Shown here: in pieces, positions 23,480-33,312 of the stretch
Layout: every line of letters begins with the position of its first letter
Position numbering within the stretch: the first letter of the stretch is position 1
NCBI GenBank assembly: GCA_947450365.1
Contig: CANFVE010000009.1
Span: 29,657 to 93,656, forward strand
Direction: 5' to 3'
DNA length: 64,000 nucleotides
Source of the DNA: Cytophagaceae bacterium
Lineage (GTDB): Bacteria > Bacteroidota > Bacteroidia > Cytophagales > Spirosomataceae
Made by a program: the position numbers and the translations under genes
Notes under the pieces: model-generated
What the model saw: only the letters and a program-made list of their open reading frames with translations
Told to the model about the DNA's origin: nothing
Databases searched by the model: none

Positions 23480-23901
23480 TCATTTTAAACGATTAAACAA
23501 GATAATTAAACAATTGTAAATCGTAATATTCTAATTTAGCCATATAGATAATTATAATATTTTATGAAAAATTTACTTGGATACGTTTTTTATTCAAGCA
23601 TTTTTTGCATATTTGTATATCAAAATCTACCTGGGCGTCAACAGGGTAGGAGCGTGACAGAATGTCACTTGTTATTTTAGCTAAATTTGAAGCTAAATAT
23701 CCTCCAAATTTAATTTTGTACCTAATTGTAACTAACTGATAATCAGTTTATTGATAACTTAAAGTTTAAGTTAAATTTAATCTGGTATTTCGAGTAAAAC
23801 GAGGCTATTCTTGATCAATCAATTGATTTATTTTTTCTTCGGGATTGAGAATCCAACCTTTTTCTGCGAAATTGCAGTTCAAAAAATTGCATACAATTAA
23901 T

Positions 23902-24720
23902 ATGAATAACTTAAAAGAGATTATCGTTGCTGCGTGGGATCAGCCGGAATTACGTCAAACACCTGAAAGTATCCAGGCGATCGAAGCGGTGTTAGAAAAG
24001 GTAGATAAAGGAGAGCTTAGGACGGCGGAACCGTTGGCAGATGGTAGTTGGCAAGTCAATGAATGGGTAAAAAAAGCGATTGTGATGTACTTCCCTATTC
24101 GCCAGATGTCGGTTAGTGAAGTAGGAATCTTCGAATTTCATGATAAAATGAAATTAAAAAGTAATTATAAGGAATTAGGCGTACGAGTTGTTCCACCGGC
24201 AGTGGCGCGTTATGGTGCATATTTGGCGAAGGGAACAATTTTAATGCCTTCTTATGTGAATATTGGTGCCTATGTGGATGAGGGAACAATGGTGGATACA
24301 TGGGCGACTGTTGGGAGTTGCGCCCAAATAGGTAAACATGTCCATTTAAGTGGCGGTGTGGGCATTGGTGGTGTATTAGAACCGCCTCAGGCCTCACCTG
24401 TAATCATCGAGGATGGTGCATTTATTGGTTCTCGTTGCATCGTCGTCGAAGGTGCTCACATAGGTAAAAAAGCCGTTTTAGGTGCCGGGGTAACGATTAC
24501 TGGATCCTCTAAGATTATCGATGTTTCAGGTCCGGAACCAGTCGAATACATCGGCTATGTGCCTGAAAACTCGGTTGTTATTCCAGGTAGTATTCAAAAA
24601 ACATTCGCAGCTGGAACCTATGGCGTTCCATGTGCATTGATTATTGGAAAACGGAAAGAGAGCACAGATTTGAAAACCTCATTGAATCAAGCACTTCGTG
24701 AGAATAATGTGGTAGTCTAA
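23902..24720 (+). CDS. dapD: 2,3,4,5-tetrahydropyridine-2,6-dicarboxylate N-succinyltransferase
   Basis: DapD hexapeptide-repeat region 'TWATVGSCAQIGKHVHLSGGVGIGGVLEPPQASPVIIEDGAFIGSRCIVVEGAHIGK'. Confidence 0.96.
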   Translation: MNNLKEIIVAAWDQPELRQTPESIQAIEAVLEKVDKGELRTAEPLADGSWQVNEWVKKAIVMYFPIRQMSVSEVGIFEFHDKMKLKSNYKELGVRVVPPAVARYGAYLAKGTILMPSYVNIGAYVDEGTMVDTWATVGSCAQIGKHVHLSGGVGIGGVLEPPQASPVIIEDGAFIGSRCIVVEGAHIGKKAVLGAGVTITGSSKIIDVSGPEPVEYIGYVPENSVVIPGSIQKTFAAGTYGVPCALIIGKRKESTDLKTSLNQALRENNVVV

Positions 24721-24744
24721 ACCGAAATCAATCCTTACCTTTAT

Positions 24745-24773
24745 ACCCGGTTCTTAAACAACCGGGTTTTTTT
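24745..24773 (+). terminator. Terminator after dapD, abutting next start codon
   Basis: ACCCGGTT (24745-24752) / AACCGGGT (24760-24767) followed by Ts to 24773. Confidence 0.85.
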
Positions 24774-25616
24774 ATGGAAAATAAATTAAAAATAGGCGAA
24801 TACAACCGCCTGCGCATCATTAAAGAAGTTCCTTTTGGTTTATATCTGGATGGGTATGAAGATGAAATTCTACTTCCTTTGCAATATGTACCGGAAACAT
24901 ACCAAATCGATGAAGTCATCGAAGTATTTATCTATCGAGATTCAGAGGATCGGATTATTGCGACAACACTTCGACCAAAGGCCACCATTAACCAATTTGC
25001 CTATTTAGAAGTTCATTCAGTTACCCCATTAGGCGTTTTTCTGGAATGGGGATTAGCAAAACATTTATTTGTTCCATTTAGCCAACAGTTTCAAAAAATG
25101 ACCGTTGGCCGATCATACCTCGTGTATGTCTATTTAGATTTACAAACCGATCGCATCGTGGCTTCCGCCCGAATCGAAAATTTTCTTCCTGTTCTTGATA
25201 TCAATGAGGAGTTTACAATTGGCGACAAAGTAGATGCAGTCCCATTTGAACACACAGATCTAGGAATTAAATGCCTTGTAAACAATTGTAAAATAGGTTT
25301 ATTGTTCAAAAATCAAGTGTTTACAAAAGTAACAATGGGTGAATCAATGTCTGTTTACGTTTCTAACATTCGTCCTGATGATAAATTGGATTTGCGTTTG
25401 GAACCTGTTGGCCTAATACGTATGGATGGCCAAATGATAAGGTTGTTAGCTATATTAAAAGCGAATAATGGTGTCTTAATGTTGCATGATAAGAGTCCGG
25501 CAGAACTGATTTATGATCAATTGGGGATGTCGAAAAAGGATTTCAAAAAGGCCGTTGGGGGATTATACAAAAGTAAACAACTCGCTATTCATCATGATTG
25601 CATTTCACTTTTGTAA
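24774..25616 (+). CDS. S1-like RNA-binding protein, CvfB family
   Basis: 'LKIGEYNRLRIIKEVPFGLYLDG' and tandem S1-like domains with C-terminal winged-helix-like end. Confidence 0.9.
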   Translation: MENKLKIGEYNRLRIIKEVPFGLYLDGYEDEILLPLQYVPETYQIDEVIEVFIYRDSEDRIIATTLRPKATINQFAYLEVHSVTPLGVFLEWGLAKHLFVPFSQQFQKMTVGRSYLVYVYLDLQTDRIVASARIENFLPVLDINEEFTIGDKVDAVPFEHTDLGIKCLVNNCKIGLLFKNQVFTKVTMGESMSVYVSNIRPDDKLDLRLEPVGLIRMDGQMIRLLAILKANNGVLMLHDKSPAELIYDQLGMSKKDFKKAVGGLYKSKQLAIHHDCISLL

Positions 25617-25698
25617 ACTAATTTAATTCATCGTTTCTTATTTGTAATTTGAATTTGTTCGTTTACTTTTGTGATGTATTATTTACAATCGTAATCGG

Positions 25699-26193
25699 AT
25701 GGATTTAGCTGGAAAAATAGAATTAATTATTAAGCGTAAGCAATTGAGTTCTTCTCAATTTGCTGATGTGTTAGGAATCCCAAGAAGTAGTATATCCCAT
25801 ATTCTCTCGGGACGTAATAAACCGAGTTTGGATGTCGTACAAAAGATTCTAACCGCATTCCCTGAAATCAGTGCGGAGGAATTGTTATTTGAAGACCGGA
25901 CTTTACAGGTGGCCACGGCGGTAAAACCACAAGCTGCTCCTACCATGCCTTTACCGACGCTATTTGATAGTCCAACGCCTAGCCCGTCAGAATCCGTTAA
26001 AAATAATTTACCTGAGCCTACTATCGTACGCTCGAATCTCAGGCGGAATCGTGATGAGGCTAAAAATTCCGCGCCGCAGCAAGAGAATCCGAGCCAAGCG
26101 CAAGAATTAGCTCCCCACTTAACAAAACAGATTGAACGGGTTATCATATTTTATTCCGACGGTTCTTTTTCTGAAAGTAAACCCTTGGTGTAA
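25699..26193 (+). CDS. XRE-family helix-turn-helix protein
   Basis: 'QLSSSQFADVLGIPRSSISHILSGRNKPSLDVVQKILTAFPEIS' HTH_3. Confidence 0.92.
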   Translation: MDLAGKIELIIKRKQLSSSQFADVLGIPRSSISHILSGRNKPSLDVVQKILTAFPEISAEELLFEDRTLQVATAVKPQAAPTMPLPTLFDSPTPSPSESVKNNLPEPTIVRSNLRRNRDEAKNSAPQQENPSQAQELAPHLTKQIERVIIFYSDGSFSESKPLV

Positions 26194-26205
26194 TATCGAA
26201 TCGAC

Positions 26206-26302
26206 TTATCCTCGAATTACCTTCGACTTATCCCCAACTTATCCACAGTTGTGCACATTTGTTATTTTCATTCTCCACTTATCCACAATTTTATGTGGAT
26301 AA
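26206..26302. promoter_or_regulatory. Cluster of DnaA-box sequences
   Basis: TTATCCACA at 26239-26247 and 26279-26287, TGTGGATAA at 26294-26302 (all exact), TTATCCCCA at 26228-26236 and TTATCCTCG at 26206-26214 (imperfect). Confidence 0.75.
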
Positions 26303-26334
26303 CTCGTGGATTTGTTTACAATTTCTACACATTG

Positions 26335-26365
26335 CCAATTTCAAGCTGAAATTGGTCATTTTTTT
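26335..26365 (+). terminator. Terminator-like hairpin downstream of DnaA-box cluster
   Basis: CCAATTTCA-AGC-TGAAATTGG followed by TCATTTTTTT. Confidence 0.7.
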
Positions 26366-26380
26366 GAGTCTATATTTCAT

Positions 26381-26411
26381 TTGACATAGCCACGATAATT
26401 GCTTAATTTTA
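26381..26411 (+). promoter_or_regulatory. Candidate promoter for the MazG-like/two-component operon
   Basis: TTG(ACA) at 26381, 20-nt spacer, TAATTTTA at 26404-26411 (7/8 to TAnnTTTG), 18 nt before ATG 26430. Confidence 0.45.
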
Positions 26412-26429
26412 GTTTATATACCTTATTTT

Positions 26430-26897
26430 ATGCAAAAAATCGATTCCTTAAACCAGGTGGCCTTGTTTCATCAGACTTTTGGGGCGCCTATCTTGGACGA
26501 ACCAACCATTCCTTCCGCAGAACGTTGTCAATTACGCGTCAGCCTATTAGCTGAAGAATTAGATGAATTATGTGAAGCGATTGCTGCAGGGGATTTGGTG
26601 GAAGTGGCCGATGCCCTGTGTGATTTACAATATGTGCTTTCGGGGGCCGTTTTGGAGTTTGGATTGGGTGAAAAATTCGTCGATTTATTTGATGAAGTGC
26701 AAAGGTCCAACATGTCTAAAGCCTGCCAAAGTCTCGAAGAAGCCGAAAATACAGTCAAATTTTACCGAGATAAGGATGGAACAGAGGCGGAAATTAAAGC
26801 AGAACATGGCGTTTGGAAGGTATTTCGTAAAGCAGATAACAAGGTATTAAAGTCAATAAATTATTCGCCAGCTGACTTAGCTAGCTTATTAAGATGA
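26430..26897 (+). CDS. MazG-like/phosphoribosyl-ATP pyrophosphohydrolase-like NTP pyrophosphatase
   Basis: 'LRVSLLAEELDELCEAIAAGDLVEVADALCDLQYVLSGAV' EExxE...ExxD MazG-type signature. Confidence 0.88.
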   Translation: MQKIDSLNQVALFHQTFGAPILDEPTIPSAERCQLRVSLLAEELDELCEAIAAGDLVEVADALCDLQYVLSGAVLEFGLGEKFVDLFDEVQRSNMSKACQSLEEAENTVKFYRDKDGTEAEIKAEHGVWKVFRKADNKVLKSINYSPADLASLLR

Positions 26898-27577
26898 TGA
26901 AAATCCTATTGATCGAAGATGAGCCTAAAACCGTACAATCCTTAAAACAAGGTTTGGAAGAAAATCATTATGCGGTAGAAGTGGCTTATGATGGCTTATT
27001 AGCCAGGCAATTGGCCACGCGAAATACCTATCAATTGATCATTTCCGACATCATCATTCCTGGAATGAATGGCATCGAATTATGTCGGGAATTACGCGCC
27101 TTAGGAATCCAAACGCCCATACTCATGTTAACAGCCTTAAGTACGACCGATGATAAATTGATCGGATTCGAGGCAGGAGCTGATGATTATCTGGCGAAAC
27201 CTTTCGATTTTAAAGAATTTTTGGCACGCGTCAAAGCCTTGATTAAGCGATCCAATCAAACGATTTTGGAAGCGCAAACGCTTCGATTTGCCGACTTAGA
27301 AATGGATTTAACGAGTCATTTGGTGAGTCGATCGGGCCAAAGTATCAACCTCACGTCCAAAGAATTTCAATTACTCGAATACTTCCTCCGAAATCAAGAA
27401 AAAGTACTCTCAAAAGCTGAAATCGCCGAAAATATTTGGGAAGTAGAAGATGAAAATAGCTCAAACCTCATTGAGGTATATGTGAATTATTTACGGAAAA
27501 AAGTTGACAAAGGTTTTTCAAGTAAATTAATTCATACTCAATTTGGCATGGGGTATATATTACGAATGGAACAATAA
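26894..27577 (+). CDS. OmpR/PhoB-family response regulator
   Basis: Receiver domain 'ILLIEDEPKTVQSLKQGLEE...ISDIIIPGMNG...PILMLTAL...LAKPF' and winged-helix C-terminus; start overlaps preceding stop. Confidence 0.96.
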   Translation: MMKILLIEDEPKTVQSLKQGLEENHYAVEVAYDGLLARQLATRNTYQLIISDIIIPGMNGIELCRELRALGIQTPILMLTALSTTDDKLIGFEAGADDYLAKPFDFKEFLARVKALIKRSNQTILEAQTLRFADLEMDLTSHLVSRSGQSINLTSKEFQLLEYFLRNQEKVLSKAEIAENIWEVEDENSSNLIEVYVNYLRKKVDKGFSSKLIHTQFGMGYILRMEQ

Positions 27578-27578
27578 G

Positions 27579-28946
27579 ATGCAAATCCGATCGAGATTAA
27601 CCTACCAATTTACCTACCTGGTTTCGGCGATTCTCTTCGTTTCTTACCTCATTATTTTCGTATTTACCCAACAAAACTACGAGGATAAATTTTATAGCCG
27701 GCTTCGTCAGAAGGCCAATACGGCAGCCGAATTATTAGTCAACGTCAACCAAGTCGATAGTAAACTCCTACGGATTATCGATCGTGCCAATCGGGATATT
27801 TTGTACCGAGAAAACATCGTAGCTTATGATACCTGTTTTGAACGTATTTATCGGTCCAATGACACGATCAATTTCCATATTGATGTCAACCGAGTTAAAG
27901 ATGTTTTAAAGCGAAAAGACGTCCGATTTAGCGTAGACGATTTAGAAGTATTGGGAACTGTTTTTGTGACCCCAGAGGGAAGAATCGTCGTTTTTGCAGG
28001 GGCTGTGGACCAATATTCTGCCGAAAATGCGAAGGATTTAAAAAACATTTTAATTGCTCTATTTTTATTATTTGTGTTCATTGTCGTGATTTCTGGCTGG
28101 TTTTTTGCTGGCAGGGCCGTAAATCCCATATCCGAAGTCATCAAACAAGTCGACTTATTATCCCCCAAACGACTCGAACAACGCCTTGAAACGTCAACTT
28201 CAGAGGATGAAATAGGGAAGATGGTGGCTACGATCAACCGTCTTTTGGAACGCATTGAAAATGCCTTTAAACTCCAAAAAACATTTATTGCCAATGTTTC
28301 CCATGAATTAAAAAATCCTTTGACGAAAATTTCGTCCCAATTAGAGGTTAGTTTACTAAACGAACGGAAAACCGATGAATATAAACAAACCATCGCATCC
28401 GTTTTAGAGGATACCCAAGATTTAGCTGCAATTACGGAATCTTTGTTAGAACTCAATAAAATTAGTATTTCAGATTATCAAGCGAGCTTTCAAACCACTC
28501 GCGTAGACGAAATCCTGTGGGAATCAAGGAGTTTGACGCTTAAATTAAACAGCCTATATAAAGTCCAAATCGACACGCAATTCATGCCCGAAGACGAGGA
28601 ATTGTTGAATATGAAAGGCGATGAAAAATTGATTTTAACAGCGATAAAAAACCTATTAGAGAATGCATGTAAATTCTCAACCGATAAAACCGCTCAGGCT
28701 TGCATTCAAACCGAAGGAAAATGGATCGTTATCAAAGTAAGCAATGAAGGAAAAGGGATTCCAGAAGCGGATATTCCGTATATTTTTCAGCCATTTTTCC
28801 GTGCAGAAAATACGGCTTCGTCCAAAGGCTATGGCATCGGATTATCGCTCGTGGAACGCATCGTGTTGTTGCACAACGGCCAAATTTCCGTACAATCCGA
28901 ATTAAACGGAACCACCGAATTTACGCTTCGTTTCCCGATGCTATAA
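27579..28946 (+). CDS. Sensor histidine kinase (HAMP-HisKA-HATPase)
   Basis: 'FIANVSHELKNPLTKISSQLE' H-box, 'KNLLENACKFS' N-box, 'GKGIPEADIPYIFQPFFRAE' G/F boxes. Confidence 0.96.
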   Translation: MQIRSRLTYQFTYLVSAILFVSYLIIFVFTQQNYEDKFYSRLRQKANTAAELLVNVNQVDSKLLRIIDRANRDILYRENIVAYDTCFERIYRSNDTINFHIDVNRVKDVLKRKDVRFSVDDLEVLGTVFVTPEGRIVVFAGAVDQYSAENAKDLKNILIALFLLFVFIVVISGWFFAGRAVNPISEVIKQVDLLSPKRLEQRLETSTSEDEIGKMVATINRLLERIENAFKLQKTFIANVSHELKNPLTKISSQLEVSLLNERKTDEYKQTIASVLEDTQDLAAITESLLELNKISISDYQASFQTTRVDEILWESRSLTLKLNSLYKVQIDTQFMPEDEELLNMKGDEKLILTAIKNLLENACKFSTDKTAQACIQTEGKWIVIKVSNEGKGIPEADIPYIFQPFFRAENTASSKGYGIGLSLVERIVLLHNGQISVQSELNGTTEFTLRFPML

Positions 28947-29129
28947 ATTTAGCATCCCACATCAGAATGCCATCCCCAAACGTTTTAGCCTAAATTTGAT
29001 ATCAGCCTGAAGGCAACGTCTCGAGAATTATTAGTTTTTACCTTCCTGTATCATCCTTCGAGTTCATAGGATATTCAATGGAATACAGTCAAATACCGTC
29101 AAAAAAGCATTTGAACGAATTATTATAAT

Positions 29130-29157
29130 TTGTTATATAATTTATATTATGTTAAGT
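29130..29157. other. Candidate dif (XerC/XerD recombination) site
   Basis: TTGTTATATAA-TTTATA-TTATGTTAAGT; positions 29137-29157 match 19/21 of the E. coli dif segment ATAATGTATATTATGTTAAAT. Confidence 0.65.
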
Positions 29158-29170
29158 AATAGATTGAACA

Positions 29171-29206
29171 ATCAAAAAGGCCGTCCCTACAGGCGGCCTT
29201 TTTGAT
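29171..29206. terminator. Bidirectional terminator
   Basis: ATCAAAAAGGCCG-tccctacagg-CGGCCTTTTTGAT perfect 13-bp stem with A/T flanks. Confidence 0.85.
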
Positions 29207-29208
29207 AT

Positions 29209-30654
29209 TTATTTTTCTAACTCAGCTAACTTCGCATCCATTTTCAACGCGCGATAGATTTGCTTCAAAACTTCCTTCAAATCTTCTTCTTTTTTCGATT
29301 TGTATCCTTTTTCAAAATAAGGCAATGCTTGCTCGTATTTCGCAGTCACCGCTGCTTCCACATTTTTACCTTCTTTTTTGTAGGTATCCATGTCCATGTT
29401 ATCAACTTTTTTCTTAATCTCAACCGCCTCATTGAAATAATAAGCTCCTAATTGATACAAGGCATCGTAATAATTGCCATCGATTTCTAAAGCCTTCGTA
29501 TAATAACCTGGCAAATCTTTCCGGTATTCAGCTACTTTTGCACCTAATTCCTCAATTTTTGACTTATTAGCCGCCTCATCCCCTACTTCAGCCTCGGCCT
29601 TAGCTAAATCACCTTTCAATGCATCTAGGGTTTTTGTTTGTTCCGCTACCGTAGATTCTAATTTCGAGATTTGCGCCTTAATTGGGCCTTGTTTCGCTGG
29701 AGGTGTAGTTTTCAACTTCGCCTTGGTCCGCTTAACCTCATCATTATATACATCCACTTGATCTTTTTGAGCCGCTAATTTGCGTTTTGCCTCGGTAATT
29801 TTCACCGTTTTATCTTGGATCTTACGGACTTCATCCAAAACCCCATTCATCTTGTTTTCGAACAATAAACCTAAATTCAACCAAGACATCGCATCCTTAG
29901 GATCCGCCGCCACCGTCGCCTTTAATTGCGTAATCGCTTGATCGATCCGATTAAAGGAAATCAACATATTGAATTTCTCATTTTTCAAATCCTTATTTCC
30001 AGGATAAATCGCAATCCCCTGGTCAATTAAAGCGATTGCCTTATCTTCTTCCTTAGCCGTCTTGTAGATTTGTGACAATCCATATAAAATAGCCATATCC
30101 TTTCCTCCGATCGATAAATACAATTCGTAAGCCTTTCTCGCTTCCGCATCTTTTTGGCATAACTGAGCCACTACACCCGTGTACATCGCTGAAGTCGTAT
30201 CTTTGGGCGAAATTTCAGATGCCTTACTCATATACTTAAATGATGAGGCATAATCTTTTCCTTGGTACTTGATTACACCCATATTCATCAGGGCACCGTA
30301 GGCTTTTTCACGACCGGTCAACAAAACCTCCGCTTCCTTCGCCACACTCCCCTTTTTCCCATCTTTGGTATCTAATTTCACCGCCTCAGCGATAAATTCA
30401 ATCGCCTTAAATGACGCATCCGCATCTTTTAATGCAACCGTCGAATCTGGAAATGAGGCCAAATCCAAGTATGCCACCGCACGATTCAACCATGGACGTG
30501 GTTTTGTCGGTGCCTTTTTCACTTCATCATCCGACTTTTTAACAGCCTCTAAAATGGCCTTTTTTTGCGCTTCGACCAAAGCCTTATCCACCTGAGCGAA
30601 CGTTGAGCCTGCGGCCAAAACCACAGTAAACAGGGTTAAAACTAATTTTTTCAT
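29209..30654 (-). CDS. Exported TPR-repeat protein with coiled-coil segment
   Basis: Signal peptide MKKLVLTLFTVVLAAGSTFAQ, TPR units, coiled coil in the middle. Confidence 0.88.
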   Translation of the reverse strand: MKKLVLTLFTVVLAAGSTFAQVDKALVEAQKKAILEAVKKSDDEVKKAPTKPRPWLNRAVAYLDLASFPDSTVALKDADASFKAIEFIAEAVKLDTKDGKKGSVAKEAEVLLTGREKAYGALMNMGVIKYQGKDYASSFKYMSKASEISPKDTTSAMYTGVVAQLCQKDAEARKAYELYLSIGGKDMAILYGLSQIYKTAKEEDKAIALIDQGIAIYPGNKDLKNEKFNMLISFNRIDQAITQLKATVAADPKDAMSWLNLGLLFENKMNGVLDEVRKIQDKTVKITEAKRKLAAQKDQVDVYNDEVKRTKAKLKTTPPAKQGPIKAQISKLESTVAEQTKTLDALKGDLAKAEAEVGDEAANKSKIEELGAKVAEYRKDLPGYYTKALEIDGNYYDALYQLGAYYFNEAVEIKKKVDNMDMDTYKKEGKNVEAAVTAKYEQALPYFEKGYKSKKEEDLKEVLKQIYRALKMDAKLAELEK

Positions 30655-30671
30655 TGTGTTTAGTTATATTA

Positions 30672-30702
30672 AAAAAAATAGCCCGGACATCACATCCGGG
30701 CT
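30672..30702 (-). terminator. Terminator after gyrA (minus strand)
   Basis: AGCCCGGA / TCCGGGCT stem (30680-30687 and 3095-type partner at 30695-30702), A-run on plus strand = U-run on minus transcript. Confidence 0.75.
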
Positions 30703-30711
30703 GATAAAAAA

Positions 30712-33312
30712 TTATACTTCTGTTGAATCTTCTACTTGATCATCCGCTTCCGCCGACTCCCTTCCTTCTGAAACAGGTCCTTCCTCCATCGCGGGTGCAT
30801 CTAACACAACACCTTCCGCAAGCTCCATTCCTTCCACCATTTCCACTTCTTCTGGCTCTGGATCCTTTTCAATCTTCGTTACCGACGAAATCTCATCCGC
30901 TTCATTCTTCAAACGAATCAATTTCACCCCTTGCGTATTCCGTCCCATGACACGTAATTCTGCCACACTCGTCCGAATCAAAATACCCGCTTTGGTGATA
31001 ATCATCAAATCGTTGTTATCATCCACTTCCTTAATCGCCACCAACGCACCTGTTTTCTCCGTGATATTCAAGGCTTTAACTCCTTTTCCACCCCGGTTTG
31101 TCAAGCGGTAATCATCGACCTCCGAACGTTTTCCAAATCCTTTTTCGGAAACAACCAATAACTGTTGAACCTCCGGATCCGACACACAAACCATGCCAAT
31201 CACCTTCTCAGTCGGGATTTTCTCATCGATCCAGATGCCCTTCACCCCCGCCGCCGTACGACCCATCGGACGCACCCGAGTCTCCTCGAAACGCACCGAA
31301 CGACCGGTATTCGTCGCAATGACGATTTGATTATTGCCATTCGTTAACGCAACGTCTAACAAACGATCTCCCTCGCGAATCGTAATGGCATTAATACCAT
31401 TTTGACGCGGGCGAGAATAGGCTTCTAACGAAGTCTTCTTAATCGTTCCATCTTCCGTACACATCACAATGAAATTATTATCAATGTAATCCGGATCCGT
31501 AATCGACTTCACATTGATCACCGCACGAATGGTATCTCCATTCTCAATGTTCATTAGGTTTTGAATCGGTCTTCCCTTCGACACTTTGGATCCCTCCGGA
31601 ACCGCGTAAACGCGTAACCAGAAGCATTTTCCGCGCTCGGTGAAGAACAATAACCAATTATGCATCGTCGCGGAGAATAAATGCTCCGTATAATCATCAT
31701 CTTTCGTCGCCACGGCACGTGAACCTACCCCACCCCTTGTTTGGGCACGATATTCTGTGATGGCGGTACGTTTGATATATCCTTGAGCCGATACGGTGAT
31801 TAACATTTCATCATCGGCAATCATATCTTCCACAGAGAATTCTTCATCGGTCATGTTGATCTGCGTTCTCCGCTCATCCCCATACCGCGTCTTCATATCC
31901 GTTAATTCATCCTTAATGATTTGTAATTGACGTTCTGGTTTTGCTAAAATATCCTCCAAATCCTCGATCAATTTCATAATTTCGGCATATTCATTCATGA
32001 TTTTCTCGCGCTCCATGCCGGTTAAGCGTTGTAAACGCATCTCCAGAATTGCTTTCGATTGAATCTCGGACAAATTAAACTTAGCCATTAAGCCTTCCTG
32101 CGCCGTATTCGGATCTTTGGATTCACGAATCAATTTGATCACCGCATCCAAATTATCCAAGGCAATAATAAAGCCTTCCAAAATATGCGCACGCTTTCTC
32201 GCCTCCCGTAAATCATATTGCGTCCGACGCACAATAACTTCATTGCGATGCTCCACAAAATGATGAATCAAATCCTTCAGATTCAACATCATTGGGCGAC
32301 CTTTCACCAAAGCCACGTTATTTACACTAAAGGACGATTGTAAAGCCGAATGTTTGTACAAATTGTTCAATACCACATTCGCCACCGCATCGCGCTTTAA
32401 ATCGAACACAATGCGCATTCCTTGACGATCCGACTCATCCCGAATCTCCGAAATCCCATCAATCCGTTTATCATTTACCAAATCCGCACACTGCTTGATC
32501 AAGTTCGCCTTGTTCACCATGTACGGAATCTCCGAAATAATAATCTGCTCTTTACCCGTTTTAGATGTATCAAAGGTCGCGTTTCCACGCACAACAATTC
32601 GACCACGTCCTGTTTCAAAGGCATTTTTAATTCCTTGAACGCCATAAATGGTACCACCCGTAGGGAAATCCGGCGCCTTAATGTATTGCATCAATTCCGG
32701 AATTGTAATATCCCGATTATCTATATAGGCTGAAATACCATCAACCACCTCCGTTAAATTGTGTGGGGCCATATTCGTGGCCATACCCACCGCAATTCCC
32801 GAAGTACCATTTAACAAAAGGTTTGGAATCTTGGCAGGTAAAACGGTAGGCTCCTCGAGGGAATCGTCAAAGTTGGGCTGAAAATCAACCGTCTCCTTAT
32901 TCAAATCCGACAACATCTCATCCGCAATTCGCTTCAAACGCGCCTCCGTATACCGCATCGCTGCAGGAGAATCCCCATCGACCGAACCAAAGTTACCCTG
33001 ACCATCCACCAAAGGATACCGCAAAGACCAATCCTGCGCCATACGAACCATCGTATCATAGACCGATGAATCCCCATGTGGATGGTACTTACCCAATACC
33101 TCCCCGACAATACGAGCTGATTTCTTATAGGATTTATTATAACTAACCCCCAACTCCTCCATTCCATACAACACCCTGCGATGTACAGGCTTAAGCCCAT
33201 CACGAACATCCGGCAAGGCTCTAGAAACAATAACAGACATCGAATAATCGATGTAGGCCCCTCTCATTTCATCTTCGATGTTGATTGGGATAATATTTGA
33301 ATTTAAAGACAT
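30712..33312 (-). CDS. gyrA: DNA gyrase subunit A
   Basis: '[32 protein letters not shown]', '[38 protein letters not shown]', GyrA beta-pinwheel motif '[10 protein letters not shown]'. Confidence 0.97.

Follow-up and report, generated by a model that had tools for sequence, protein, structure and literature searches.

A conserved, terminus-linked DnaA-box cluster in Aquirufa: a putative DnaA docking or control site

Introduction

What is a dense group of DnaA boxes doing beside dif, where replication is expected to end? The question arises from the window analysed here, a stretch of 64,000 nucleotides on one contig (CANFVE010000009.1) of a Cytophagaceae bacterium. The preliminary description of this DNA offered two conflicting explanations for the group, either oriC or a DnaA-titrating or DnaA-signalling locus near the terminus, and concluded that the oriC or the dif call had to be wrong, or the locus unusual.

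Results

DnaA boxes in the window form two modules

The cluster sits between an XRE gene and a MazG/PRA-PH-like pyrophosphohydrolase gene (MazG-like gene below). The three exact boxes reported earlier, two on the plus strand and one on the minus strand, were recovered along with their near-matches. Further boxes were located with a relaxed pattern, TTNTNCACA with at most one mismatch.

25699-26193, plus strand: XRE-type helix-turn-helix gene, 5′ of the cluster (Pfam PF01381)
near 26208: weaker near-box TTATCCTCG (sequence match)
26228-26236: one-mismatch box TTATCCCCA (sequence match)
26239-26247, plus strand: exact box TTATCCACA (sequence match)
26249, plus strand: relaxed box TTGTGCACA (relaxed pattern)
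26279-26287, plus strand: exact box TTATCCACA (sequence match)
26294-26302, minus strand: exact box TTATCCACA (sequence match)
26313, minus strand: relaxed box (relaxed pattern)
26323: relaxed box TTCTACACA (relaxed pattern)
26228-26257, plus strand: module A, three head-to-tail DnaA boxes (TTATCCCCA at 26228, TTATCCACA at 26239, TTGTGCACA at 26249)
26279-26321: module B, opposed pair TTATCCACA (26279, plus) and TGTGGATAA (26294, minus) with a spacer of 6 bp; the third box is a relaxed minus one at 26313
26430-26897, plus strand: MazG/PRA-PH-like nucleotide pyrophosphohydrolase gene (Pfam PF01503, E 1e-17)

Boxes in module A are offset by 11 and 10 bp, leaving gaps of 2 and 1 bp; low-affinity boxes 2-3 bp apart favour cooperative head-to-tail DnaA binding (PMC8682772). 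The opposed boxes of module B are offset by 15 bp, and the further minus box follows at +19 (+18 in the sister genus G030, +10 in some species). An RNA hairpin formed by the inverted boxes was disfavoured: the second box in G030, TTTTCCACA, breaks the pairing while leaving the DnaA box intact, and no T-run follows.

The cluster lies at the terminus, and oriC lies elsewhere

29136-29155, plus strand: dif core TATAATTTATATTATGTTAA, terminus marker (exact match)

The dif-like site, earlier placed 2.9 kb away, was correctly called: its core is exact and lies 2.83 kb from the last box. Of 245 genomes in the order, 203 had the core at up to one mismatch, normally as a single copy, and a reversed-pattern control gave close to zero matches. 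Being nearly invariant across the order, TATAATTTATATTATGTTAA is usable as a terminus marker for this group. GC skew changes from plus to minus at about 28-29 kb of the window, and genes converge there. Beyond dif are a TPR protein gene and then gyrA. The gene order dapD-cvfB-XRE-MazG-dif-TPR-gyrA (window 23845-33312) is common to the terminus of several genera.

There are 53 exact boxes in the 2.66-Mb genome, and they form only two tight groups, the window cluster and one on contig C7. The latter (C7:20987-21199) packs seven exact boxes into 213 bp, with an eighth some 350 bp off and a flank of 75-85% AT. It is taken as oriC from its box density, AT-rich flank and nearby parS; the mnmG (gidA) region of Aquirufa, 4-6 kb from oriC, has three perfect parS palindromes (G000:C7:25564-27207; L001 9680-11580). 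G108, an assembly of 2.505 Mb in nearly one contig, has just two tight groups, oriC at 1.242 Mb and the terminus cluster at 2.1347 Mb, and its dif lies at 2.132 Mb. The terminus cluster is likewise the sole tight group apart from oriC in G099. The two oriC-dif arms of G108 contig C1 are unequal (0.89 and 1.6 Mb), which may be a misassembly of the draft or a real asymmetry. Skew in G108, taken from 20 sampled 20-kb blocks, was noisy, with the expected sign change at oriC and dif and mixed values on the other arm.

As a candidate for oriC, the window cluster was rejected. It has three boxes against seven on C7, and so is not the densest cluster; the plus-to-minus skew and converging genes are not the skew minimum with diverging genes of an origin; and its AT content is unlike that of the C7 flank, at 62-70% over the boxes, reaching 77% only at the MazG promoter. 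A second or dormant origin at the terminus would account for the oriC-like density and mixed orientation of the boxes. We consider it highly improbable, as oriC lies elsewhere, the AT content over the boxes is modest, and skew and gene direction mark a terminus. Nor was a second dnaA gene found near the cluster, the single DnaA-family match in the genome being on contig C21. Of the two calls that seemed incompatible, dif therefore stands and oriC, with its place on C7, falls. Since the cluster is linked to the terminus, the other proposal, a locus there that titrates or signals through DnaA, fits better.

Might a protein other than DnaA, such as the XRE regulator encoded next door, bind these sites? 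This is very unlikely: the oriC cluster is built of the same 9-mer, the boxes lie 3′ rather than 5′ of the XRE gene, and that gene is 3.8 kb away in Arcicella.

The layout is conserved across Aquirufa and a sister genus

At least two, and usually three or four, exact boxes lie between the XRE and MazG-like genes in the window and in all 24 other Aquirufa loci examined. The named relatives that carry the same locus are Aquirufa species, freshwater bacteria, and from these matching contigs the genome of the window is taken to be Aquirufa, family Spirosomaceae. Across the Aquirufa loci, dif lies 2.57-2.77 kb past the start of the MazG-like gene, and further Aquirufa-like contigs agree.

Module A was present in all 26 loci compared (25 from Aquirufa, plus G030), its last box being TTGTGCACA or a close variant. 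The opposed pair of module B was present in 20 of these 26; its spacer is fixed in length and variable in its letters. The six loci that keep module A only form one clade in a tree of flanking proteins, and module B was therefore probably lost once. Of 38 Aquirufa genomes, 25 have a single copy of the pattern TTATCCACA-N6-TGTGGATAA, in every case at the terminus cluster; several of the remaining genomes are incomplete assemblies.

Conservation thins outside this group. Arcicella-type genera have up to three exact boxes 5′ of the MazG-like gene, 1.0-1.5 kb from dif and without the module layout, and some Arcicella-type genomes have no exact box there. None was found at the MazG-dif locus of the related genera g2, g20 and Siphonobacter, where MazG adjoins dif. 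Exact boxes were also absent 5′ of all 50 more distant MazG homologues listed, and no box cluster was seen in the 20-kb dif regions of 20 genomes from other families.

Thinned or missing boxes in some Arcicella-type genomes are what a chance or neutral leftover of box-like sequence would give. When the 45 non-oriC boxes were scattered randomly 5000 times, three never fell within 64 bp, and the analytic expectation is about 3e-5. With that figure, and a layout kept across a whole genus, chance is barely conceivable. The preliminary description had named two outcomes that would count against a real feature, boxes not conserved in relatives and comparable clusters common in the genome; instead, module A is universal in the loci compared and oriC is the only comparable cluster. 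With several DnaA boxes in one intergenic region, above chance and conserved, this has the sequence features of a DnaA-box cluster outside oriC in the general sense.

Control of the MazG-like gene is a serious rival

26334-26356, plus strand: terminator-like hairpin plus T-run 3′ of the XRE gene (no clear conservation among relatives)
26404-26411, plus strand: TAATTTTA, −7-like element of the presumed promoter of the MazG-like gene
26894-28946, plus strand: genes for a response regulator and a histidine kinase, lying between the MazG-like gene and dif

The preliminary description had the XRE stop at 26193, then a terminator-like hairpin, then a promoter, and all were found. It took the hairpin to make promoter control hard to accept. 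That argument is weak: relatives show no clear conservation of the hairpin, DnaA could exert control from an upstream position, and the boxes lie 5′ of the MazG promoter in every relative.

DnaA acts as a transcription factor at sda in Bacillus subtilis. It may do the same for the MazG-like gene, tuning nucleotide clean-up to replication status, with the closeness of dif no more than inherited gene order. We regard this as quite possible, if short of an even chance, and as a serious rival because the boxes always adjoin the MazG-like gene within the clade. In all 25 Aquirufa loci they lie between the XRE and MazG-like genes and 5′ of a conserved promoter, the TAATTTTA element being 25-30 bp 5′ of the start codon in each. 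In Arcicella and G028 the boxes stay by the MazG start even though the XRE gene is kilobases off or reversed, and an Arcicella box that lies 41 bp 5′ of the start codon may overlap the promoter. Box clusters at promoters under DnaA control have been described (PMC4447404).

Spacing argues the other way. Distances from module A to module B fall into three classes (51-52, 92-93 and 112-114) that differ by whole helical turns, with a phase coherence of 0.92 calculated over the distinct values; simulation of three classes gave a p of about 0.01. Three classes are few, and the agreement is therefore only suggestive of modules A and B being kept on the same helical face. The distance from the boxes to the MazG promoter varies from about 65 to 270 bp, with a coherence of about 0.5. 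The constant distance or phase expected of a DnaA-controlled promoter is thus not seen here. Moreover, the layout of module B is more elaborate than a simple operator requires, and the listed MazG homologues of other lineages lack exact boxes. Of 101 genomes in the family, 98 have a homologue of the gene. Among the loci compared, only those of Aquirufa and G030 had the response regulator and kinase pair between MazG and dif; it was not found there in the Arcicella-type loci L038 and L039.

Other genera carry a different dif-linked element

Against control of the MazG-like gene as the sole role stand dif-linked arrays in three genera, g3, g5 and g18, whose sampled genomes have no MazG beside dif. 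Here an GTTCCACGTGGATAA element is joined to degenerate DnaA-like boxes; 28 genomes have one such array each. The boxes are mostly one mismatch off, at offsets of 11-12 bp, and are on the opposite strand relative to dif. In 24 of the 28 genomes dif lies within 1 kb of the element on the same strand, and in 17 it is 54-55 bp away; in G044, G018, G038 and G089 the distance is 1.7-2.8 kb. In g5 the distance to dif is as a rule exactly 55 bp, and the element has the sequence CAATACTTTAGTGTTCCACGTGGATAA with the DnaA-like boxes after it. Because of the mismatches in the boxes of these genera and their opposite direction with respect to dif, we only infer that they are DnaA sites, or homologues of the Aquirufa cluster.

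A parS-like sequence, GTTYCACGTGRA, lies near dif in many Spirosomaceae genera (L287-L314; L137-L139, L145-L150; L038-L043, L153), on the same strand and the same side of dif throughout. Related copies without clear boxes occur near dif in family genera beyond g3, g5 and g18. It was absent near dif in Aquirufa and G030, and in 20 genomes of other families, where one partial match lay far from dif. GTTYCACGTGRA looks like a terminus-linked parS-like site.

Discussion

The Aquirufa cluster emerges from these sequence comparisons as a conserved, terminus-linked DnaA-box element of fixed geometry, staying less than 3 kb from dif, unique in the genome besides oriC, and no origin. Its closest counterparts are loci that control DnaA. 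On NC_000913, Escherichia coli DARS1 and DARS2 were measured to have plus, minus and minus boxes at offsets 14 and 12, the first two of which hold DnaA head to head (PMC8682772). Like them, the Aquirufa cluster is intergenic, with opposed boxes I and II (in 20 of 26 loci), a next box oriented as the second, and few copies per genome (PMC8682772). It differs in the opposed offset (15 against 14) and in the next minus box, mostly at +19 (some at +10) against +12. Despite the same layout, the exact core spacing of 14 and 12 is not kept, and for this reason module B is not filed as DARS. DARS also lies mid-arm, whereas the Aquirufa cluster is at the terminus and has module A in addition.

Other relatives are equally partial. 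E. coli datA is a non-coding DnaA-box cluster outside oriC too, but lies near oriC rather than beside dif. The DnaA-box clusters of B. subtilis and the Streptomyces coelicolor cluster are likewise intergenic multi-box groups; some of the former also control adjoining genes (PMC4447404). The clusters that restrain initiation are, by published accounts, near oriC (PMC4585315), unlike the Aquirufa cluster beside dif. Promoters under DnaA control, such as that of sda, share boxes 5′ of a gene promoter, but the Aquirufa boxes have no fixed spacing to theirs and DnaA regulation there is putative. What is novel is the placement at the terminus, as the known loci sit elsewhere and E. coli datA and DARS2, as well as a B. 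subtilis cluster, become weaker on relocation to it (PMC5010248; PMC4585315). Our literature search returned no report of a dif-linked DnaA-box cluster or of Aquirufa replication, nor of such DnaA-box control in Bacteroidota, an absence that is not proof.

The best reading is a terminus-linked DnaA docking or control site of the datA, DARS or DnaA-box-cluster kind, with binding and function predicted; we put its chances at about even. In its favour, module B, in the genomes that have it, occurs once and only there, and dif-linked arrays exist in genera whose sampled genomes have no MazG beside dif. Against it count the constant position of the boxes just 5′ of the MazG-like gene within the clade, the want of exact boxes in g2, g20 and Siphonobacter though MazG adjoins dif, and the poorer working of datA, DARS2 and the B. 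subtilis cluster at the terminus (PMC5010248). A docking site and control of the MazG-like gene may both hold.

If the docking-site reading is right, module A would be loaded with DnaA head to tail and module B with an opposed pair. Staying on one helical face, these assemblies may interact. As the site is among the last DNA copied, its duplication would alter how much DnaA is free or ATP-charged, and would thereby link the next initiation to completion of the round before. DARS stimulates ADP release from DnaA, and datA acts through IHF-dependent ATP hydrolysis by DnaA. The Aquirufa site might correspondingly recharge DnaA as DARS does, inactivate it as datA does, or titrate it. The DARS-like opposed pair hints, by analogy, at recharging, but one Aquirufa clade lacks the pair and has module A only.

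More tentatively, and rather doubtfully as yet, Spirosomaceae as a family may have a dif-tied DnaA control element, made of exact boxes in modules A and B for Aquirufa and its sister genus, and in other genera of a parS-like palindrome fused to weak boxes beside dif. Duplicated as replication ends, such an element would reset DnaA activity and thereby couple termination and segregation to the initiation that follows, perhaps with ParB taking part. Cultured Aquirufa species exist, so the prediction is testable. The DnaA-box control loci in the literature consulted act from near oriC or from mid-arm, and one at the terminus would differ from them. If true, the cluster would be a candidate signal for a finished replication round, and an undescribed link between the end of replication and its next start.
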